Below the pieces are notes generated by a model. That model was not told where the DNA came from, did not search any database, and saw only the letters and a list, made by a program, of their open reading frames with translations. A DNA stretch of 64,000 bases from Vicingaceae bacterium. GTDB lineage: Bacteria; Bacteroidota; Bacteroidia; Flavobacteriales_E; Vicingaceae. This document shows positions 38,882 to 49,986 of the stretch, piece by piece. Where the stretch lies: the NCBI GenBank assembly GCA_026003395.1, contig BPHE01000013.1, positions 1 through 64,000 of the forward strand, given 5' to 3'. The position numbers and the translations under genes are program-made. How positions within the stretch are numbered: position 1 is the stretch's first letter; every line of letters starts with the position of its first letter.

Positions 38882-39640
38882 TTAACATATCGATTCTGTT
38901 GCTTTAAAATCCGCATAAATCTTATCCTTTTTAAAAACCTTTTTAGACAACCATTCCGTCCCGGCCACAGTTACTAATACTGATGTCACACTACTCATCG
39001 GCATCAATATAGCGGCTGTCAATGGACTTAGTTGCCCACTAAAGGCCAATGTCAGGCCTGCCAGATTATACAACAATGCTATAAAATAGGTGAAATACAG
39101 TAATTTCATCGATAGGTTGGCAAATTTCATGATTTTCGGTAGCAATGCAATATTTTCTCCGGGCATTATTGCATCCCCGGATGGTGCAAAATATGCCGCG
39201 TCATTACTTATTCCGATTCCAAAATCTGCTGTTTGCAAGGCAGGTATATCATTTAGACCGTCTCCAACCATCAAAACTTTTTTTCCTTTTTTTTGCAATT
39301 GTTCCACATATTTTTTTTTGAGTTCGGGATTTTGCCTGCTTTTTATTTTCACATAATTGCCAAATATAGATTGAAAGATATTGACATTGCTCGGATGATC
39401 GCCGGTGAGTATATGCAATTTTATATGATTTGATTTCAGTTCATTTAGTTTTTCCAGACCTTCGCGCAAGCGTTGATTGAAAGAAAAATACCCGGCTACG
39501 CTTCCATTTATTTCCAAATATACTCTTGTTTCATTACTTTGTTCGTCACTTTCAATAAGTCCTGATTTCCGGCTTTTATCAAATATCCCTCTGCAGATGC
39601 CTCTATTCCTCTTCCCGGCATCTCGACAAAATTCTCGCAA
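38882..39640 (-). CDS. ccoI: C-terminal part of CcoI-type copper P-type ATPase (after frameshift)
   Basis: Continues the P1B-ATPase encoded upstream. In-frame sequence is genuine from about 39568 down (KSGLIESDEQSNETRVYLEI). It supplies the end of the N-domain, the P-domain hinge LHILTGDHPSN and VLMVGDGLNDIPALQTADFG, and the last two membrane helices (LLYFTYFIALLYNLAGLTLA, LTAAILMPMSSVTSVLV). One A missing from the AAA run (GGAAATCAGG, minus strand) breaks the frame. This is the last gene of the cbb3 operon. Confidence 0.85.
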   Translation of the reverse strand: MREFCRDAGKRNRGICRGIFDKSRKSGLIESDEQSNETRVYLEINGSVAGYFSFNQRLREGLEKLNELKSNHIKLHILTGDHPSNVNIFQSIFGNYVKIKSRQNPELKKKYVEQLQKKGKKVLMVGDGLNDIPALQTADFGIGISNDAAYFAPSGDAIMPGENIALLPKIMKFANLSMKLLYFTYFIALLYNLAGLTLAFSGQLSPLTAAILMPMSSVTSVLVTVAGTEWLSKKVFKKDKIYADFKATESIC

Positions 39641-41346
39641 TGGCCGGATATGATGCCTTTCTTACGGATAAATTTTACAATCTCACGGCTTAACGGATGA
39701 ATGGAATTGTCCAATGCAGATGCAACAGCACTCCATTCTTCTGGTTGCAACATCCTTCCTTCCCATTGCAAACCAAAGTCCTTTTGTGTCAAGGTGCCGG
39801 TTTTATCCAATATCACATCTGTTATATATCCCAGTGTCGACAATTGATCAGGATTCTTAACAAAGAAATTTTTTTTTGCCAAAATTCTCGACATATTTCC
39901 AAATAAGAATGGTGCCGACAAAGCAAAAGCACATGAGCAGCCCACAATCAATATAGACGAAATAATTAACCATAATTTTCCCGGATCGATTCTTCCATTC
40001 CAATAAAAATAGGCCGCCATTGACGTGATCAACACTGTGATTGTTATAAAGGACCCTAATCGTTTGGAAATTGTTTTAAATGTATAATTTTTGGCTTTAT
40101 CGTTTTCAGTCCATAAATTGACAAAATAGGCCTTGTCAAAAGCGGCTTCTGATTTCAATAAAACTTTTTTTCCAATGATTTTTCCTCCCGTAAAAATTTT
40201 TTCGCCTTTCTTCTTATGGTATATTTTTGATTCACCGGTAATGAAACTGTAATCAACAGAACACTCATCGGAAATAAGAATACTGTCAAATGGCAGTATC
40301 TCCCCATTTCTCATCCTGATTATATCCCCTTTCTTAATTTCTTCAATGGCTACCGGCTCTTCTTCACCGTTATTTATAACCATAACAGACAAAGGAAAAA
40401 AGGTTTGATAGTTTTTTTCGAAAGACAAAACATTGTATGTACGGGTTTGATACCATCTACCCAACAATAAAAAGAAAATAAATCCTGCCAGGGAATCGAG
40501 ATAACCCGGACCCGACATTGTCAATATCTCATAAACACTCCGGGAAAACAAAGTAATCATTCCAAGCGCTATGGGAATGTCCATGTTTATTTCACGCACT
40601 TTAAAAGCCGATAAAGCATTTTGTAAGTAAGGCATCCCGGAAAAAAATAACACCGGTAAGGAAAACAATAAGGATAAGTAATGCAAAAATGTTTGTATAT
40701 TTTTATCTTCCGGCCCAAACATCGAAAGATATTCAGGCAACACCATCAACATGATATTTCCAAAAGCAAATCCGGCTACGCCCAATCTTAAAATCAATAA
40801 CCTGTTTTGCTCCGATTCGGCATTTTTCCGGTTGGAAAAATAGGGTTTATAGCCAATATTGGCCAGTAATAAAGACAAATCATATAAAGAGATTTGGTCG
40901 TGATAAAAAAGAATGGATGCCGTTTTGGCATGATAATTTACCTGCACTTGAATGAGTGCCGGATGAATCTTGTGCAAGTGCTCCAACAACCATATACACG
41001 ATGCACAGTGAATGGACGGAAGATACATCACCACTTTTGCGACTCTACCTTCCTTAAATTTTAGAAATTTAGCGGCAATGACAGGATTTTTTAAAAACTC
41101 AAATTCTTCCCGGTCAATCTGTTCATCAGGTTTGCTGAATTTTTGAAAGCTTTGCTCTTCATAAAGTTTCTCCAGTCCTGCATTTCTTAAGATTTGAAAT
41201 ACATGCAAACATCCATTGCAACAAAATAATTTACCTTCACTCTCTAAGGGTCTATCAGGCAGTACAGACCCACAATGAAAACAAGTGTTTTTTTGACTAT
41301 TGTCAATTTTATTTTCTATTTCGGCAGTTGAAATTTTCAATGACAT
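39508..41346 (-). CDS. ccoI: N-terminal part of CcoI/FixI-type copper-translocating P-type ATPase (frameshifted)
   Basis: Exports copper for assembly of the cbb3 binuclear centre. A Cys-rich metal-binding domain (CFHCGSVLPDRP, LFCCNGCLHVFQIL) leads, then an HMA-like domain with CASCIW (about 115-120). Membrane helices follow, with the actuator TGES (SFITGESKIYHKK) and the phosphorylation site DKTGTLTQ. In the sixth-helix metal site, CPC of the family is CSC (IVGCSCAFALSAP). The protein should be ~810 aa, but an A deletion at 39566-39568 diverts it into an unrelated tail (NQDLLKVTNKVMKQEY). The ATG at 41346 overlaps the TauE-like gene by 10 nt. ccoI lies last in the operon. Confidence 0.9.
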   Translation of the reverse strand: MSLKISTAEIENKIDNSQKNTCFHCGSVLPDRPLESEGKLFCCNGCLHVFQILRNAGLEKLYEEQSFQKFSKPDEQIDREEFEFLKNPVIAAKFLKFKEGRVAKVVMYLPSIHCASCIWLLEHLHKIHPALIQVQVNYHAKTASILFYHDQISLYDLSLLLANIGYKPYFSNRKNAESEQNRLLILRLGVAGFAFGNIMLMVLPEYLSMFGPEDKNIQTFLHYLSLLFSLPVLFFSGMPYLQNALSAFKVREINMDIPIALGMITLFSRSVYEILTMSGPGYLDSLAGFIFFLLLGRWYQTRTYNVLSFEKNYQTFFPLSVMVINNGEEEPVAIEEIKKGDIIRMRNGEILPFDSILISDECSVDYSFITGESKIYHKKKGEKIFTGGKIIGKKVLLKSEAAFDKAYFVNLWTENDKAKNYTFKTISKRLGSFITITVLITSMAAYFYWNGRIDPGKLWLIISSILIVGCSCAFALSAPFLFGNMSRILAKKNFFVKNPDQLSTLGYITDVILDKTGTLTQKDFGLQWEGRMLQPEEWSAVASALDNSIHPLSREIVKFIRKKGIISGHCENFVEMPGRGIEASAEGYLIKAGNQDLLKVTNKVMKQEYIWK

Positions 41347-42035
41347 TTCACCTTTGTCTTTGCTTGATTGTATTCAATTTTTGGACTCAAGTAAGGAATC
41401 CCTAAATTTAATGATCTTACCACCAAGATGCTTCCTGTTATCAAAGCAATCAATGGCAACAATTTAATCTTTACAAGCTTTTGATTGGCTATGGTTTTCG
41501 TCGAAAGTATGCTAATCAATGCCAAAGCAGGTATAGTGGCAATGCCAAAAAAAAACATAAAAAGAGATGCATGCAAAGGCGATTGGAAATTCATGGCTAT
41601 CATAAAGGCCACAAATGAAAATCCACAAGGCAGAAATCCATTGATTAATCCGGCGACTCCAAATTTAAGCGCAGATGACACATTGTTTAATTTATTTAAT
41701 CCCACATAATTGAATAAGTTAAATTGAAAGCCGGGTGTGATTTTTTTTAAAGGCACAAAATAACTAATCGACCACAATATAATGAAAAGACCCGTAGCAA
41801 TCGAAATAAATTGTTGTAATCCGAAAAACTTTGCAATCCATCCTATCTGGCCAAACATTACACCTATCATCACATAGGCAATAATTCTGGCAATATGATA
41901 TAAAACAAAATTTGCCAAAGCTTTTTGGTTATTTAACTTTGGAAAGTGATACAACATCAATGGACCACACATACCCAAACAATGGACACTTCCTATAAAT
42001 CCCATGACGGTAGCAGATACAATCAAAGTAAGCAT
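41337..42035 (-). CDS. TauE/SafE-like (DsbD-related) membrane protein of the cbb3 operon
   Basis: 232 aa with six to seven membrane helices. The start GSVHCLGMCGPLMLYHFPKL carries the HCxGMCG pair, and a second LINGFLPCGFSFVAFMIA has the PCG motif, both typical of the sulfite exporter TauE/SafE-type (COG2836) proteins in cbb3 operons. These are thought to handle copper or thiols for oxidase assembly; transport substrate is not proven. It starts 11 nt after ccoH and overlaps ccoI by 10 nt. Confidence 0.85.
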   Translation of the reverse strand: MLTLIVSATVMGFIGSVHCLGMCGPLMLYHFPKLNNQKALANFVLYHIARIIAYVMIGVMFGQIGWIAKFFGLQQFISIATGLFIILWSISYFVPLKKITPGFQFNLFNYVGLNKLNNVSSALKFGVAGLINGFLPCGFSFVAFMIAMNFQSPLHASLFMFFFGIATIPALALISILSTKTIANQKLVKIKLLPLIALITGSILVVRSLNLGIPYLSPKIEYNQAKTKVKCH

Positions 42036-42046
42036 ATCAAATTTTA

Positions 42047-42487
42047 TTAGTTTACAAAAATGTTTTTTTCTGTATAATATTGCTTTTTACCATCATCCCA
42101 CCGAATTTTCATCCTCACCAAACGGTTATGTAAAAGCTTTTTACTCAATCCTGCCACACCACCTTCCGGAATATTTTGCATGGTTGTAAAATAATCTGCA
42201 GATTTATCATTCGGAACATATAAGTGAATTTCACCGGATATAACCGGTGTTTGTTTGAAACGAATCAAAATACTGTCGCTTTTTTGTGTGATTTCCAATG
42301 CATCAGGTCCCAATTGATTGAAATTTTGTTTTAAGTCAATAATTTTTTGATATTCTATTTCAAGTTTGTAATAATCTTCGTCCACCAATTCCACTTTTGA
42401 TTGATACATGTGTACCACCATATATAAGATAAATGCGGCAAAAAAGACAAATGATAAAATGATTCCATGTCCCCAATGTATTTTCAT
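42047..42487 (-). CDS. ccoH: CcoH/FixH family cbb3 oxidase assembly protein
   Basis: 146 aa. One N-terminal membrane helix (GIILSFVFFAAFILYMVVHMY) followed by a periplasmic FixH domain, VELVDEDYYKLEIEYQKIID and IHLYVPNDKSADYFTTM. FixH interacts with CcoI/CcoG in cbb3 maturation. Its ATG overlaps the ccoG stop in ATGA. A typical member of Bacteroidota cco operons. Confidence 0.88.
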   Translation of the reverse strand: MKIHWGHGIILSFVFFAAFILYMVVHMYQSKVELVDEDYYKLEIEYQKIIDLKQNFNQLGPDALEITQKSDSILIRFKQTPVISGEIHLYVPNDKSADYFTTMQNIPEGGVAGLSKKLLHNRLVRMKIRWDDGKKQYYTEKNIFVN

Positions 42488-43905
42488 GGTCTACCTATAT
42501 TTAAAAAATTGGTTTTAAATTTTTTTATCAATCTCCCATCTTGATTATAAACTCCCAGAATCACCTTTGATTTTACGTTTTTTATTTTATCACGGGGAAT
42601 TGCCACCAAGATACTGCCTTGAATAAAATCTTCTTTTTTGAGTAGCGGTATTTTTCCTATGAATTCAACTCTCCCTTCTTTTGGTTCGATAATTTTTATT
42701 TCAGGGTAAAAGTCCTTATTTGATTTATTGATCAATTTATAAGTATAAATGTTTTTTACCCATCCATTTTCATTAAGTGCCATCGATCCGGTCGATCTCA
42801 GTATGGTTCCGTCTATTTCGCTACGTGTTACCAACAAATACCCGGAAACAACAGCAAGCAATACAAGAATTGACAAATAAGCTTTAGCTCTTATGTTTAA
42901 TTTGTATGGTTGATTTTCCTTAATTTGATATTCCGAACTATATTTAATTAAACCCTTAGGCAATCCGACTTTTTCCATCATAAAATCACACGCATCTATA
43001 CACAAAGCGCAATTAACACATTCCAATTGTGTGCCGTTTCTAATATCTATCCCTGTTGGGCACACATGCACACACTGCATACAATCAATACAATCACCTT
43101 TACCTGACAATTTCCTGTCTTCGTTTTTTTTGAATTTAGCTCTTGGCTCTCCTCTTATATAATCATATGCTATGACCAAAGTGTCGGGACCAATTAACAC
43201 ACCCTGCAAACGCCCATACGGACAAATATTGGTGCAGACCTGTTCCCTTAGAAATGCAAACACTCCATAAAAAACCAAGCTGAAAATTATCAAAGATGAA
43301 AATCCGGCCAAATGTTCAACCGGTCCTTCTTTAATCAAAATTTTTAATTGTTCTACTCCAATTAAATAACTTAAAAACAAATTTGAAATCACAAAAGATA
43401 CCAGTAAAAACAAAAAGTGTTTGACAGTTTTTTTGAACAATTTTTGACTATTCCATGGCATTTTATCCAGCTGCATTTGCTCTTTCCAATCCCCCTCTAT
43501 CCAATATTCTATTTTTCTGAACACAAGTTCCATAAAAAACGTTTGGGGACAGGCCCACCCACAAAACAATCTACCCAACACCACGGTAAATAAGGCGATA
43601 AACAAAACGCCCAATATCATCAGCAATCCGAATATATAAAAATCTTGTGGGTAAAATACTATGCTGAAAATGTAAAACTTTCTGTTAATTACATCTAAAA
43701 GCAAAAAAGGGGTGCCATGAATCTTTATGAAAGGCATTACAAACAATAAGGTCAATAAAAAATATCCTAATATCTGCCGATAAAAGAAAAATCTGCCACT
43801 TACTTTTTTGGGATAAATCCAGCGTCTTCGGCCTTTTTCATCTACTGTTGAAATCCTGTCTCTGAAGGATTCTTTATTTTCGGCTATATTTTTTTCCGAA
43901 ATCAT
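42484..43905 (-). CDS. ccoG: Cytochrome c oxidase accessory protein CcoG (RdxA/FixG)
   Basis: 473 aa. Polyferredoxin in the inner membrane: helices at the N-terminus, then CGWACPQTFFMELVFRKIEY and CTNICPYGRLQGVL, two 4Fe-4S motifs (CIDCMQCVHVCPTGIDIRNG, CVNCALCIDACDFMM) and a C-terminal Ig-like domain after a last helix (AYLSILVLLAVVSGYLLVT). In other bacteria CcoG reduces Cu(II) during cbb3 assembly. It lies 5 nt after ccoP and overlaps ccoH by 4 nt. Confidence 0.95.
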   Translation of the reverse strand: MISEKNIAENKESFRDRISTVDEKGRRRWIYPKKVSGRFFFYRQILGYFLLTLLFVMPFIKIHGTPFLLLDVINRKFYIFSIVFYPQDFYIFGLLMILGVLFIALFTVVLGRLFCGWACPQTFFMELVFRKIEYWIEGDWKEQMQLDKMPWNSQKLFKKTVKHFLFLLVSFVISNLFLSYLIGVEQLKILIKEGPVEHLAGFSSLIIFSLVFYGVFAFLREQVCTNICPYGRLQGVLIGPDTLVIAYDYIRGEPRAKFKKNEDRKLSGKGDCIDCMQCVHVCPTGIDIRNGTQLECVNCALCIDACDFMMEKVGLPKGLIKYSSEYQIKENQPYKLNIRAKAYLSILVLLAVVSGYLLVTRSEIDGTILRSTGSMALNENGWVKNIYTYKLINKSNKDFYPEIKIIEPKEGRVEFIGKIPLLKKEDFIQGSILVAIPRDKIKNVKSKVILGVYNQDGRLIKKFKTNFLNIGRP

Positions 43906-43910
43906 TAATT

Positions 43911-45086
43911 CTATGAATTTTGATTGTTCTGTTTCAGAACTGTATCTTGTTTTACTGAATCGACATTGTTTTCAGGCAAATCTTCATCTAACCAAAGTTC
44001 ACCTTGGGGTGGCAAAGCACCGGGCGGGTTAGAGCCACGCAATGATATTATATAAGATGACACTAATTGAATTTGTTTGGGTGATAATTGAGTTTCCCAG
44101 GGGATCATCCCTTTTTCAGGCACTCCATATTTAATGGTTTTAAAAACATTTTTAATGCCGCCTCCATGAATCCAATAATCGTCAGTAAGATTAGGCCCGG
44201 CACCACCTTGTGCGTTTTGTCCATGACATACCGCACAGTTGGTTTTGAAAATTTCTTTGCCTTTTTCGAGATCTGTCGCATCAGTCAATAGTACCACGTT
44301 ATTTTCGTTGATATTGGCTGCAGCTTTTTCCAAATATTCCTTTTTTTGTTTCTCGGCTTCCTCCATTTCTATTCTATACAACTCTTCCTGTCCAACACCC
44401 GGACCTATAAATCCTATATTTTCAAATGCTTTAATTGGTGTCACATGATAATGAATCATATAGACCACAGAAAATATGATTGTGGCGTAAAACATCCATA
44501 ACCACCAGGGGGGCAGTGTATTATCAAGTTCACGGATGCCATCATATTCATGTTCAAATTGAATAGCGGCTTCTTTCTCAACCGGTACCGATTTGGTGAA
44601 AATCCTGCCCCAATCAATATTTCCGGACAATACACCAAACAATCCCGGTTTTGCTTCTATTTTGCCGGTAAAAGACAAAAGATCAACATACATCCTGAAT
44701 AACCAGATGTTAACCAGTAATAACAAAATATTCATCACCACCAACATCAACAGATCCATCGTGCCAAACACATTTAGTAAAGGAATTGATAAGTCATTAA
44801 CATATTTGGATGGAAAGAGTAACAAAAACCACAAGTTTTTCGAAATTTCCGGTTTATCATTTGCAGAGATATTTTCATTTCTACCGGATGATTTTACTGA
44901 CTTTATTGCGTTGATCATCGTAAAAACAAAAAACAACTGCAATAAAATCAGTATCAACAATCCCCATCCGGACCAATCTTCAGGATTTATTTCCAGATGA
45001 TTGCTTTTTTCTATGCTTTCGGCACCCATAGATATTATTGAAATTAGCAAGCAACCGATTAATACAATTATTTTTTTTGATTTCAT
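43911..45086 (-). CDS. ccoP: cbb3-type cytochrome c oxidase subunit III, CcoP
   Basis: 391 aa. An N-terminal signal-like helix, a second pair of helices (GLLILILLQLFFVFTMI, TMDLLMLVVMNILLLLVNIW), the FixP N-terminal motif DGIRELDNTLPPWWLWMFYA with another membrane helix, and one class I cytochrome c domain with CAVCH (about residue 289) and GMIPWETQLSPKQI as axial Met region. Classical CcoP has two heme motifs; I find only one, as in other Bacteroidota forms. The tail is Asn/Pro-rich and ends LKQNNQNS. It carries electrons to CcoNO. Starts 20 nt after ccoQ. Confidence 0.94.
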   Translation of the reverse strand: MKSKKIIVLIGCLLISIISMGAESIEKSNHLEINPEDWSGWGLLILILLQLFFVFTMINAIKSVKSSGRNENISANDKPEISKNLWFLLLFPSKYVNDLSIPLLNVFGTMDLLMLVVMNILLLLVNIWLFRMYVDLLSFTGKIEAKPGLFGVLSGNIDWGRIFTKSVPVEKEAAIQFEHEYDGIRELDNTLPPWWLWMFYATIIFSVVYMIHYHVTPIKAFENIGFIGPGVGQEELYRIEMEEAEKQKKEYLEKAAANINENNVVLLTDATDLEKGKEIFKTNCAVCHGQNAQGGAGPNLTDDYWIHGGGIKNVFKTIKYGVPEKGMIPWETQLSPKQIQLVSSYIISLRGSNPPGALPPQGELWLDEDLPENNVDSVKQDTVLKQNNQNS

Positions 45087-45283: not shown

Positions 45284-47431
45284 TTATTTTGAAGACAATT
45301 GTTCATTTTGTTGACCTTTTTCAAGGTCTCTACCTAACCTTTGCAAATAAGCGATTACTGCTATCACCTCTTTATCAGCAGAAGTTTCTATATTATTTTT
45401 TCTTAGATCTTCAGCAATATCTTGAGCTTGTTTAATAAGATCTTTAGTGGCCACCAAATCATAACCTTCCGGATAAGGTACTCCCAACTTACGCATGGCT
45501 CTAATTTTCTTTGCTGTCAATGTTGTATCCAATTTATTCTCTATCAACCAGGGATATGCCGGCATGATCGAACCAGGTGATGTTAATTGCGGATCCAATA
45601 AGTGTGTGTAATGCCAAGCATTGGGCTTCCTTAGTTTATCGGTTCCTTCACGTGAAAGATCCGGACCGGTTCTTTTTGACCCCCACAAAAATGGATGTTC
45701 ATAGACATATTCACCTGCTTTGGCATATTCACCATATCTTTCTGTTTCACTGCGGAATGGTCTTACCATTTGAGAATGACATACCGTGCAACCTTCGCGA
45801 ATGTAAATATCCCTTCCTTCCAGCTCCAAAGGTGTCAATGGTTTGACTGAAGAGATGGTGGGAATGTTTGATTTTACAAGAAATGTGGGAATCATCTCCA
45901 CAATGCCACCAACAGATACCACTATAAAAGAGAGAACGAGCATTTGCACCGGTCTTTTTTCAATCCAACGATGCCAATACGATTTTTCTTCCTTGAATTT
46001 AATCAAGGAAGGAGCGTTTGCTTCTTCATTTTTCACAAATTGTCCGGCTGCTGCTGTTTTCATTAAATTATAAACCATTATAATCACTCCCGTAAAATAT
46101 AACAATCCTCCTATCCCCCTGATCAGATAAAGATTCTTGATAGCCGTAACTGTTTCTAGAAAGTTAGGATATTTCAAGAACCCCTCTGACGTAAATTCTT
46201 TCCACATAAAACTTTGAGTAAACCCTGCCCAATACATTGGCAATGCATAAAAGATAATTCCTAACGTACCGATCCAAAAATGAAAATTAGCCAATGATTG
46301 AGAATAAAGTTTTGTTCGCCACATTTTTGGGACCAACCAATAGAGCATTCCAAATGTTAGAAACCCATTCCAAGCCAGCCCCCCAACATGCACATGAGCA
46401 ATGGTCCAATCTGTAAAGTGAGATATTGCATTGACATTTTTCAATGATAACATAGGTCCTTCGAAAGTAGCCATGCCGTAACCGGTCAATGCAACTACCA
46501 TAAATTTCAATATGGGATCGGCTTTTACTTTATCCCATGCCCCACGCAACGTCAACAAACCATTGAGCATACCTCCCCAGGAAGGTGCTATCAACATAAC
46601 AGAAAAAACGGCTCCAAGCGATTGAGCCCAATCCGGCAACGCAGAATACAACAAATGATGTGGTCCGGCCCAAATGTATATAAAAATTAATGCCCAAAAG
46701 TGTACAATAGACAATTTGTAGGAATAAATCGGTCTTTCGGCTGCCTTTGGGACAAAGTAATACATTAATCCAAGATATGGAGTAGTCAGGAAAAAGGCAA
46801 CAGCATTGTGTCCATACCACCATTGCACCAACGCATCTTGCACTCCGGCAAACCAGGAATAACTTTTCAAAGCTGCGACCGGCAATTCAAAAGAGTTTAC
46901 TACATGCAATAAAGCCACTGTAACAAATGTAGCGATATAAAACCATATAGCCACATACAAATGCTCAACCCTCCTTTTTAAAATTGTAGCAAACATATTC
47001 CAACCAAACACCACCCAAATAATGGTGATCGCAATGTCAATCGGCCATTCCAATTCAGCATATTCTTTCGAAGTAGTATAACCAAGTGGTAAAGTAATGG
47101 CTGCAGCAAGTATGATCAACTGCCAACCCCAAAAATGAATGTTACTCAACAAATCACTGTACATCCTTGTTTTCAACAACCTTTGCAACGAGTAGTATAC
47201 TCCTGCAAAAATCCCGTTACCGACAAAAGCAAAAATTACTGCATTGGTGTGGAGTGGCCTGATGCGCCCGAAACTGGTTACCGGAATCCCAAAATTCAAT
47301 TCCGGAAATACCAGTTGAAATGCAATTAATAACCCAACCAACATTCCAACCACTCCAAAAACAACCGTTGCAATCAAAAACTTTTTGACAATCGCGTTGT
47401 CGTATTCAAATTTTTCTATTACTTGGCTCAT
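45284..47431 (-). CDS. ccoNO: Fused cbb3 oxidase subunits I and II, CcoN-CcoO
   Basis: 715 aa. The first ~480 residues are CcoN, a 12-helix heme-copper oxidase subunit with RPLHTNAVIFAF (heme b ligand His), WWYGHNAVAFFLTTPYLG (His of CuB), AGPHHLLYSALPDWAQ (CuB His pair) and TDWTIAHVHVGGLAWNG (heme ligands). A linker with one helix (VQMLVLSFIVVSVGGIVEMI) leads to CcoO, a membrane-anchored cytochrome c with CTVCHSQMVRPF and SPGSIMPAYPWL. Separate in Proteobacteria; fused in many Bacteroidota. It reduces O2 to water with high affinity and pumps protons. Its start overlaps ccoS by 26 nt. Confidence 0.97.
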   Translation of the reverse strand: MSQVIEKFEYDNAIVKKFLIATVVFGVVGMLVGLLIAFQLVFPELNFGIPVTSFGRIRPLHTNAVIFAFVGNGIFAGVYYSLQRLLKTRMYSDLLSNIHFWGWQLIILAAAITLPLGYTTSKEYAELEWPIDIAITIIWVVFGWNMFATILKRRVEHLYVAIWFYIATFVTVALLHVVNSFELPVAALKSYSWFAGVQDALVQWWYGHNAVAFFLTTPYLGLMYYFVPKAAERPIYSYKLSIVHFWALIFIYIWAGPHHLLYSALPDWAQSLGAVFSVMLIAPSWGGMLNGLLTLRGAWDKVKADPILKFMVVALTGYGMATFEGPMLSLKNVNAISHFTDWTIAHVHVGGLAWNGFLTFGMLYWLVPKMWRTKLYSQSLANFHFWIGTLGIIFYALPMYWAGFTQSFMWKEFTSEGFLKYPNFLETVTAIKNLYLIRGIGGLLYFTGVIIMVYNLMKTAAAGQFVKNEEANAPSLIKFKEEKSYWHRWIEKRPVQMLVLSFIVVSVGGIVEMIPTFLVKSNIPTISSVKPLTPLELEGRDIYIREGCTVCHSQMVRPFRSETERYGEYAKAGEYVYEHPFLWGSKRTGPDLSREGTDKLRKPNAWHYTHLLDPQLTSPGSIMPAYPWLIENKLDTTLTAKKIRAMRKLGVPYPEGYDLVATKDLIKQAQDIAEDLRKNNIETSADKEVIAVIAYLQRLGRDLEKGQQNEQLSSK

Positions 47432-47633
47432 ATTTATCGGATTTAGATTTTTCTATTTCTTTCAATTCGTTTTCTTTTACAGGTTCTTGCTTGTTATTGT
47501 CATCATATAATATCCTAATGGAAGGCGAGTAGATATCTTCAAACTGCCCATTTTTGACAGACCAAAAAAAAGCTGCCAAAAAACCCAGCGCTATCAATAC
47601 GCTCACGCCTATCATCAAAAAAATTACTTGCAT
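47406..47633 (-). CDS. ccoS: cbb3 oxidase assembly protein CcoS
   Basis: 75 aa. One membrane helix (VIFLMIGVSVLIALGFLAAFFW) then the CcoS motif SVKNGQFEDIYSPSIRILYDD. CcoS is needed to insert cofactors into the cbb3 oxidase. The charged C-terminal tail is longer than in many members. First gene of the operon and overlapping ccoNO by 26 nt; the promoter region is the 82-nt gap upstream. Confidence 0.93.
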   Translation of the reverse strand: MQVIFLMIGVSVLIALGFLAAFFWSVKNGQFEDIYSPSIRILYDDNNKQEPVKENELKEIEKSKSDKYEPSNRKI

Positions 47634-47652
47634 AAAGCATAGTATTACGGCA

Positions 47653-47660
47653 CAAATGTA
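47653..47660 (-). promoter_or_regulatory. Predicted -7 promoter element of the cbb3 operon
   Basis: Minus strand TACATTTG matches TAnnTTTG, 19 nt before the ccoS ATG. No TTTG is found at the -33 position, which fits a promoter that depends on an activator. Confidence 0.5.
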
Positions 47661-47682
47661 TTTTGCCGCGTATTGGAGAAAA

Positions 47683-47696
47683 ATGACTTATGTCAT
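47683..47696. promoter_or_regulatory. Palindrome with FNR/CRP-family geometry upstream of the cbb3 operon
   Basis: ATGAC-TTAT-GTCAT is a perfect 5-4-5 inverted repeat, the same geometry as FNR boxes (TTGAT-N4-ATCAA). Its centre is about 41 nt upstream of the transcription start expected from the -7 element at 47653-47660, the class II activator position. A CRP/FNR-family regulator sensing O2 or redox state is a reasonable guess; none is encoded in the window. Confidence 0.5.
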
Positions 47697-47715
47697 ATAA
47701 AAAATATGATTTTGG

Positions 47716-49986
47716 TCAGTTTTTTGATTTTTTACCAAAAATGATATCGATTAAGATCGGTACCATCAAGAAATCAAACAACAATGCCGCAAAAAGTGTC
47801 AATGATGTATACAATCCGATTCTGTATGTACTTGTAAATTGGGAAAAAATCAACGATCCGAAACCAAAAAAAAGCACAATAGTTGTGAATATCAAAGATT
47901 GTCCGGTATGTTGGAAAGTAAAATATAATTGGTCTTTAATACCTCGGCGTTTTCTTCTTTCAATATAATATCGGCTCAAGAGATGTATCGTATCATCTAC
48001 GGCAATACCGAAAGCCACTGTAAATACCACCGTGGACGACATATTTAAATCCGTTTTAAAAATATAAAAAAGACAAAACAACAAAGACAAAGGAGCCAAA
48101 TTGGGAATCAATACCACCGGCAATATTTTTATATCTTTATATAATATCAACATCAACAAACCAACTGCAGATAAGGCCAACAATAGCCCAAAACGAGTGT
48201 TTTCAATCATTAAATCATTGTTCCGGTCAATTAAGTATGCACTTCCGGTCACTGTAAATTCCAATCCTCTCGTATCAATGCGGGAGATAAAGCTTTGCAA
48301 TTTTTCCCATTTTTGTTTGGCAGCCAAACTACCAATGTCTTTCATTTTGCCTGAAATTCTGAATGTGCTTTCGCCTGCATTCCACAATAGTTTTACTTCA
48401 GGTCTCTTTTTAAAGTATTGCAGTGCACTGAAAACTTTTTTCCAATCCGTCGGATTTTCCGGCAAAACATAAAATTTATTGTTTCCGCCTTTCATGCCTC
48501 TGTAAATATTTTTGAAAACGACCGTCAGCGACTGAATAGCTTTTACTTCAAGTGAATCTTTTAGGTAGTTTTCCACCATTTCGACAGTTTTCCATGTTCC
48601 GGGATTTTCAAAAACTTCCGGATCATATTTTACTGCCATTTCAAATGGCCTGGCACCGGCAAATTCTTGCTCAAAAAACATCACGTCTTGCTTCAAGGGG
48701 TGGTTGACAGGCAGGTCCTCAAGCAAAAAATAATTCACTTTTAACCCGGGATAAATTAAAAAACCTCCGGCAATAAGTAAAAACGCCAAAAGAAAAATTT
48801 CCCACTTTTGTTTCAAAGTGAAATCTATCCATGATTTATATCTTAAAGTTTTCAATGAATTGACCTCAAATACTTCTACAGGTTTGTATTTGTAAAAATT
48901 GCGTATCAAAACAGGAAGCAATATGATGGTTAACACAAAAGCCATCATCACACCAATGGCAGTGTAAAGACCAAAATCACGAATGGGTTTTATGGGCAAT
49001 GTGACCAAAGATAAAAAACCTATTGATGTAGTAATGGAAGTCAAAAACATAGGCATTTTAAGATATTTGAGAGTATATTTCAATGAACGTGAAAGATTAT
49101 ACCCACTTTGCAAGTGAAAATGCAAACGATTTAAAAAATGAACGGAATCAGAAACCCCGACTATAAACAATATCAATGGTAGAAGAGACGCCAATATGTC
49201 TATTTTTTTTCCGGTCCACTGCATGACGGCCAGGGTGAACAAGATAGAAAACAACAAAACAAAAAAGGGCAATACTACAGTCATAAAATTTCTGAAAATA
49301 TAATACAGCACAACACCTGCCAATATTGCCCCAATAATTGAAAACATAATCAATTCTTGTTGAATGATATTTAAATAAACTTCCTGTGCTTTAACCTTTC
49401 CAACCCAGCGAAGAGGATATTTGTCAAATTGATTTAGCTTTGATTTAATGGCAGCGATCAATTCATCACTTTCTTTTTTGGTAATAATTTCTTTATTTCT
49501 AACATAAAACATCAAGGATCTGTAATCTTCCGATACGAAAACTCCTTCAAATTCATGGGTTTCAGCCAAATGCAGCGAATCATTAATTAAAACTTGATCA
49601 TTATCAGGATGAATGAAAGGAACATTTATCCACAATCCACCGGGAGCCAGCAAAGGTTTTTTGATTTTCAACAATGATGCCACACCGCGTATGTGTGGCA
49701 AAGTGGCCAATGTATCATGCAACTTCAATGCTTCATTTAAAAAAGCTTTGTTGAAAATCCCCGATTTATGCGCAGTATCCGATAAAGAAACTAAAATAAA
49801 GTCATTGTCATTCTCAAAAACTTCACGGTAATGCAAATAATAATCAAGATCTGCATTTTGACGTGGGAAAAAGTTCTCAAAATCATAATCAAACTTCAAT
49901 CGACTAATAGAAATTATTGAAATGACAGTAAAAAAGAAAAACGCTGCAAGTATCAGAAAATCAGAATGAAAATAATTTTTTTTCAT
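47716..49986 (-). CDS. MMPL/RND-superfamily exporter
   Basis: 756 aa from the ATG at 49986, which overlaps the stop of the upstream gene in ATGA. About 12 membrane helices in two repeats, each with a periplasmic domain after the first helix. Repeat landmarks are GVSDSVHFLNRLHFHLQSGY and AFGIAVDDTIHLLSRYYIER, the Asp-containing segments of fourth helices. The family moves lipids, sterols or other hydrophobic compounds by proton motive force. In Bacteroidota they are often annotated as MMPL; the substrate here is unknown. Paired with a solute-binding lipoprotein gene. Confidence 0.88.
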   Translation of the reverse strand: MKKNYFHSDFLILAAFFFFTVISIISISRLKFDYDFENFFPRQNADLDYYLHYREVFENDNDFILVSLSDTAHKSGIFNKAFLNEALKLHDTLATLPHIRGVASLLKIKKPLLAPGGLWINVPFIHPDNDQVLINDSLHLAETHEFEGVFVSEDYRSLMFYVRNKEIITKKESDELIAAIKSKLNQFDKYPLRWVGKVKAQEVYLNIIQQELIMFSIIGAILAGVVLYYIFRNFMTVVLPFFVLLFSILFTLAVMQWTGKKIDILASLLPLILFIVGVSDSVHFLNRLHFHLQSGYNLSRSLKYTLKYLKMPMFLTSITTSIGFLSLVTLPIKPIRDFGLYTAIGVMMAFVLTIILLPVLIRNFYKYKPVEVFEVNSLKTLRYKSWIDFTLKQKWEIFLLAFLLIAGGFLIYPGLKVNYFLLEDLPVNHPLKQDVMFFEQEFAGARPFEMAVKYDPEVFENPGTWKTVEMVENYLKDSLEVKAIQSLTVVFKNIYRGMKGGNNKFYVLPENPTDWKKVFSALQYFKKRPEVKLLWNAGESTFRISGKMKDIGSLAAKQKWEKLQSFISRIDTRGLEFTVTGSAYLIDRNNDLMIENTRFGLLLALSAVGLLMLILYKDIKILPVVLIPNLAPLSLLFCLFYIFKTDLNMSSTVVFTVAFGIAVDDTIHLLSRYYIERRKRRGIKDQLYFTFQHTGQSLIFTTIVLFFGFGSLIFSQFTSTYRIGLYTSLTLFAALLFDFLMVPILIDIIFGKKSKN

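Follow-up and report, generated by a model that had tools for sequence, protein, structure and literature searches.

Which protein switches on the cbb3 oxidase operon of this bacterium, and through which site? Our attention was drawn to the question by a first-pass annotation of the window (the whole 64,000-nucleotide stretch of DNA that was analysed), which proposed that a perfect palindrome ahead of the operon binds an FNR-family activator. Little has been written on how Bacteroidota regulate microaerobic respiration, and among the open-access PMC papers listed by our searches we recognised none, judging by titles and the beginnings of abstracts, that deals with the operator analysed here or with a receiver-Crp/Fnr regulator of the Bacteroidota cbb3 oxidase.

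The cco operon and its promoter

The operon is encoded on the minus strand. Its first gene is ccoS (47406..47633, Pfam FixS), followed by a ccoN-ccoO fusion carrying COX1 and FixO domains (45284..47431, Pfam), by ccoP (43911..45086; Pfam FixP_N and Cytochrome_CBB3, with the NCBIfam ccoP model below its cut-off, 119.6 vs 179.95) and by ccoG (42484..43905, above the NCBIfam ccoG cut-off). The small membrane protein encoded next (42047..42487) has no NCBIfam match; the gene order is the same in relatives, and from its position and general knowledge we take it to be ccoH-like. A further membrane protein without an NCBIfam match, presumably TauE/SafE-like, follows ccoH here and in relatives (41337..42035) and precedes a ccoI-like P-type ATPase (38882..41346). 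Two overlapping frames (39508-41346 and 38882-39640) together make up the ATPase, a pattern that a frameshift or an assembly error would produce. Another TGA-N6-TCA palindrome, TTGACTATTGTCAA at 41293-41306, lies inside the start of this ccoI-like gene and was taken as a chance occurrence. Within ccoS, a hairpin accompanied by a run of T resembles a terminator (47587-47603, minus strand), the one such match in 47400-47900, where 0.2 were expected in shuffles.

Examination of the region ahead of ccoS confirmed the elements on which the original proposal was built. The perfect palindrome is present as ATGACTTATGTCAT at 47683..47696, and the -7 element is present as TACATTTG (consensus TAnnTTTG) at 47653..47660, read on the minus strand from 47660 to 47653 and separated from the palindrome by 22 nt. 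The excerpted text of PMC7366714 gives the promoter of the Bacteroidota primary sigma factor as TAnnTTTG / TTTG. The cco promoter resembles it in its -7 box and differs in having no TTTG in the -33 region, as had been noted; the downstream half-site of the palindrome stands there in its stead. In F. psychrophilum transcriptome work the TAnnTTTG box is placed at -12 to -5 (PMC9723704, excerpted text). With this placement and the geometry of the region, transcription would start at 47648 on the minus strand, some 15 nt ahead of the ccoS initiation codon, and the palindrome would be centred at -41.5, in agreement with the class II position near -41 that had been suggested; if transcription began 4-6 nt beyond the -7 box, the centre would lie at -40.5 to -42.5. 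Relative to this predicted start, the palindrome lies where the operator of a class II Crp/Fnr-dependent promoter lies, and its TGA-N6-TCA core with dyad symmetry is that of a Crp/Fnr superfamily operator.

The proposal of a Crp/Fnr-type operator at the class II position of the cbb3 operon is supported, with the correction that there are two sites in tandem rather than one. The second operator is ATGATTTTGGTCAG at 47706..47719 (47719-47706 when read on the minus strand, as CTGACCAAAATCAT). It is 23 bp farther upstream than the proximal one, with a predicted centre of about -64.5, and shares sequence with the 3' end of the MMPL gene that comes before, which has its stop at 47716.

Conservation of the operator and its spacing

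The first-pass annotation had named absence of the motif ahead of the cco operons of relatives as grounds for refutation; the palindrome was found conserved there in the same place. The comparison drew on 80 cco loci from named Bacteroidota genomes, 79 of them with usable upstream sequence; L045, which had none, was left out of both locus sets, and L155 was left out of the site-by-site inspection too. A strict test demanded MTGAYN4RTCAK with at most one mismatch, exactly 22 nt, and TAnnTTTG with at most one mismatch. It was passed by 39 of the 79 loci, against a mean of 0.03 and a maximum of 1 in shuffles. When the box was required to be exactly TAnnTTTG, the gap was 22 nt in 18 of the 79 loci, 23 in two and 24 in one, and no matches occurred at any other gap from 10 to 40 nt. 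The site-to-site spacing of tandem sites likewise peaked at 22 bp (23/79 loci, plus three at 23 bp), and the reversed control gave 0 at every spacing.

The same geometry was evident in loci that had not been fetched by the pattern. In 1.94 Mb of such loci, which contain 597 sites, a gap of 22 was counted 50 times and a gap of 44, corresponding to the upstream site, 41 times, with 0-6 matches at other gaps. Across 120 genomes, this one included, the exact unit at gap 22 was present in 270 copies in 88 genomes, with one copy in the reversed control; in a shifted-gap control, the exact site at gap 27 gave 11 copies in 10 of the 120. One related genome (G108) has 16 exact operator-promoter units, the most of the 120, and possibly has an expanded regulon.

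The remaining 40 of the 79 cco loci failed the strict test. Many of them have a degenerate proximal site with an intact upstream site, and in others it is the -7 box that departs from the consensus; L046, L055, L207 and L213 are among a few that showed no convincing site on inspection. Core columns were conserved at 86-100% in 87 proximal sites and at 98-100% in 63 upstream sites (128 distinct contexts kept of 138), figures that are biased upward because the sites were chosen by their similarity to the pattern. A best-of-region search gave 120 contexts with a total of three mismatches or fewer; it had no shuffle control, and this figure was not relied on. The half-site that emerges is (A/C)TGA(C/T), of which the ATGAC put forward originally is one form and not the general rule. 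The evidence for the operator is its place and spacing, not its symmetry, and on this footing a conserved operator in class II placement is very probable indeed.

Candidate regulators

The original proposal presupposed a CRP/FNR-family regulator in the genome (97.7% complete), and two proteins with a Crp/Fnr cNMP domain were found. The first, hereafter REC-Crp, has 345 residues (G000:C1:176.9-177.9 kb) and consists of a receiver, a cNMP-type domain and a Crp HTH. It carries the domain pair of FNR (PF00027 and PF13545) and has no FNR N-terminal cysteine cluster; its score with the NCBIfam Fnr model, 77.5 bits, does not reach the cut-off of 228, and a cysteine-bearing FNR-like protein (L134:2558-3274) is also under that cut-off (99.4). 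Nor is REC-Crp a FixJ, its receiver being joined to cNMP and Crp HTH domains instead of a LuxR-type HTH. The expectation of an FNR-family activator therefore held as far as the presence of Crp/Fnr proteins is concerned, while the best candidate, with its receiver domain and without the N-terminal cysteine cluster, is not an FNR in the strict sense.

The exact unit (site, 22 nt and TAnnTTTG) occurs twice in the whole genome. Besides the copy at cco, the other stands just downstream of the REC-Crp gene and before a universal stress protein (usp) gene, also with a gap of 22 nt. Both of the genomes nearest by CcoNO encode full-length REC-Crp. Among the 120 genomes, full-length REC-Crp was present in 39/67 with a strong FixO match and 17/53 without one (odds ratio 2.9, p 0.006, in related genomes; G071 and G083, with weak FixO matches, were counted as without). 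REC-Crp cannot be the sole regulator of the operator, since it is absent in full-length form from 28 of the 67 strong-FixO genomes, and the looseness of the association is as expected if regulators replace each other. In this genome REC-Crp is probably the regulator of the cco operator.

Two other proteins have to be weighed as the binder. A classic iron-sulphur FNR, sensing oxygen directly, is the first, FNR-like control of cbb3 oxidases being classic. In other Bacteroidota a short Crp/Fnr protein with CxxC-x8-C...C is encoded near cco (L168, L169, L170, L166 and L167), and the iron-sulphur FNR-like and REC-Crp kinds have a recognition helix in common, approximately GT-x-x-E-(S/T/A)-x-IR-x-L with few departures (approximately GT-x-x-E-(S/T)-x-IR-x-L, again with few departures, in the REC-Crp proteins alone). 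Such proteins appear to be what those other Bacteroidota use; in this genome, however, neither of the two Crp/Fnr proteins has an N-terminal cysteine cluster, and binding by an iron-sulphur FNR is unlikely here. The second is the remaining Crp/Fnr protein of the genome (C7), which deserves attention as one of only two candidates. Its recognition helix reads TSRVVVSRLL, without the Glu and the Ile-Arg pattern of the cco-linked regulators, and the exact site adjoins the gene for REC-Crp, not that for C7. The neighbours of the C7 gene (L008, G000:C7:57500-61500), a TauE-like exporter and a metallo-beta-lactamase/rhodanese gene, suggest sulphur chemistry and a sulphur-responsive regulator. We therefore regard binding by C7 as quite improbable.

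With REC-Crp as the preferred regulator here and iron-sulphur FNR-like proteins elsewhere, the arrangement of sites was compared between the two kinds. Tandem sites were present in 20/27 REC-Crp genomes and 5/20 iron-sulphur FNR-like genomes among the matches listed (Fisher p 0.001; related genomes), an association that is a lead only. The genomes were typed by hand, and those counted have a single kind of regulator and usable upstream sequence. Left out were genomes with both kinds, whether near cco or elsewhere (such as G003, G007, G019, G029, G033, G045, G099 and G102), those in which neither kind was found (G049, G066 and G104), and G001. Further FNR-like proteins may exist in the REC-Crp group, where G074, G091 and G108 have other Crp/Fnr matches. 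At L134:1492-3274 a REC-Crp gene is directly followed by a short Crp/Fnr gene with FNR-like cysteines, so that both kinds occur in one genome. We lean slightly towards the view that across Bacteroidota two kinds of regulator with a common recognition helix can stand in for each other at one operator class, defined by the 22-nt spacing: an iron-sulphur FNR that is itself the oxygen sensor, and a kinase-controlled receiver-Crp/Fnr fusion that unites the parts of FixJ and FixK. On this view, single operators accompany the one kind and tandem operators the other, and two different sensing chemistries may in nature act on a single type of operator.

A candidate partner kinase and its possible signal

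In relatives the REC-Crp gene is often found next to the cco operon. Ten relatives, chosen because they carry REC-Crp and cco on one contig, were compared gene by gene, and in all ten the REC-Crp gene has a gene for a histidine kinase as its immediate neighbour. In this genome the regulator, the kinase and cco are on three separate contigs. The orthologue of the PAS histidine kinase is an orphan at G000:C4:180.5-182.0 kb (E 2e-149, next best 1.7e-41) and matches the nine-row alignment of relatives over 11-404 of 406 positions. Pfam analysis of five relatives' kinases found PAS, HisKA and HATPase_c, the domain composition of a FixL-type kinase. Judging from this linkage and orthology, the orphan kinase is reasonably likely to be the partner of REC-Crp.

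The best structure match of the kinase's own PAS domain was 10jx, a multi-sensor kinase, followed by the heme-PAS domains of DosP and FixL. A histidine aligned with the DosP histidine, which we take to be the heme ligand, is present in this kinase and invariant in the nine relatives. The distal arginine of FixL, which presumably has its role in the heme pocket, is not kept, the alignment showing a leucine in its place here and a methionine in most of the nine relatives. Heme or oxygen binding is doubtful because the kinase is without this arginine; with the histidine kept at the place of the ligand and the arginine not, heme or oxygen sensing is possible, and we advance heme-based oxygen sensing by the kinase only tentatively, as somewhat improbable.

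In L258, and probably in L257, from the two genomes nearest by CcoNO, a kinase frame adjoins the REC-Crp gene and a site lies before the kinase gene. The sites ahead of these kinase/REC-Crp pairs (L257:131 and L258:3630) have a near-match to the -7 box at gap 22, which makes autoregulation possible.

Proposed mode of control

The explanation that we favour, and hold to be fairly likely, is that a REC-Crp/Fnr regulator under kinase control binds the pair of operators in class II arrangement at the cbb3 promoter. What the sequence itself shows is where the sites lie, how they are spaced and conserved, and which genes are linked in relatives; that the regulator binds and activates, that phosphate is transferred to it and what signal is sensed are inferred. 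The promoter, having a Bacteroidota -7 box and no -33 box, would be driven by a Crp/Fnr-superfamily activator occupying the proximal operator, where its centre at -41.5 would place it to contact RNA polymerase, as well as a second operator farther upstream by two turns of the helix. The activator would most likely be the 345-residue REC-cNMP-HTH protein. The orphan PAS histidine kinase probably phosphorylates its receiver and may thereby relay a signal of oxygen or redox state. Through a like site at like spacing, the usp gene would be activated by this regulator too.

A different reading takes the palindromes as repressor sites, or as sites of both activation and repression. Crp/Fnr proteins can repress, and the two sites lie close together. 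Against this, the -7 box and the predicted start are both clear of the two sites, and the missing -33 box suggests that the promoter depends on an activator. In F. psychrophilum, moreover, levels of the cbb3 oxidase go up strongly when oxygen is limiting (PMC9723704, excerpted text), which fits an activator working at low oxygen; the main text of that article makes no mention of Crp or Fnr. Repression at this promoter is accordingly judged very unlikely. The possibility that the site is a chance palindrome or the transcription terminator of the MMPL gene, just behind which it lies, is negligible: the window does hold 121 perfect 5-4-5 palindromes, three with the TGA-N6-TCA core, and palindromy alone is for that reason unremarkable, but place and spacing are conserved and there is no terminator-like match at the site.

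Copies in the genome and other candidate targets

Genome-wide counts were obtained by pattern searches that include a reversed control, supplemented by one search with a shifted gap. A single exact ATGAC-N4-GTCAT is present in the window, where shuffled sequences give 0.04 on average; the 2.54 Mb genome contains three, against one in the reversed control. One of these three (C5:89084-89097) lies inside a long coding frame and was taken as chance. With up to two mismatches allowed, 38 unit matches were found in this genome (control 7), only two of them exact, and the weaker ones were not assigned as targets. Two identical one-mismatch matches, at G000:C4:200119-200162 and G000:C20:5199-5242, probably belong to a repeated element.

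Genes standing first behind exact units were also inspected in relatives, at 10 hand-chosen loci of 29 and with no background count. They encode FeoA (2), c-type cytochromes (2), Crp/Fnr-like regulators (2), a cytochrome c assembly protein, a PAS protein, an acetyl-CoA hydrolase and a cysteine dioxygenase-like protein, a set whose annotation fits a low-oxygen or redox regulon.

Comparison with known systems

Crp/Fnr proteins of Flavobacteriales were labelled MalR-like carbon sensors, as a prediction, in a bioreactor study (PMC8510549, excerpted text). The likeness is that both concern Crp/Fnr proteins of Bacteroidota, which may not be the same proteins; in contrast to the predicted carbon sensing, the Bacteroidota Crp/Fnr operator described here is tied to the cbb3 oxidase. 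What is gained is an exact operator, a promoter geometry and a regulator pair that are testable in cultivable members.

The class II promoters of E. coli FNR use the half-site TTGAT-N4-ATCAA. They resemble the cco promoter in the TGA-N6-TCA core, the 14-bp site and the centre at -41.5, and differ from it in that the half-site here is (A/C)TGA(C/T) and the -7 box is of the Bacteroidota type. In the regulators, the likeness lies in a Crp-type HTH whose recognition helix, by the FNR residues and numbering that we assume, keeps the Glu and Arg used by FNR; the FNR serine is replaced by isoleucine, a receiver domain is present and the cysteine cluster is absent.

A second comparison is with the FixL-FixJ-FixK system of rhizobia. 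The nearest analogue is hFixL-FxkR-FixK, which controls fixNOQP in rhizobia (PMC7888657, excerpted text). These systems share with the present one a PAS histidine kinase with a FixL-like PAS domain, a response regulator, and a Crp/Fnr-type activator of the cbb3 operon. The kinase here differs from FixL in that the distal arginine of the heme pocket is not conserved, and the receiver and the Crp/Fnr DNA-binding parts are combined in one protein, so that there is no separate FixJ and FixK.
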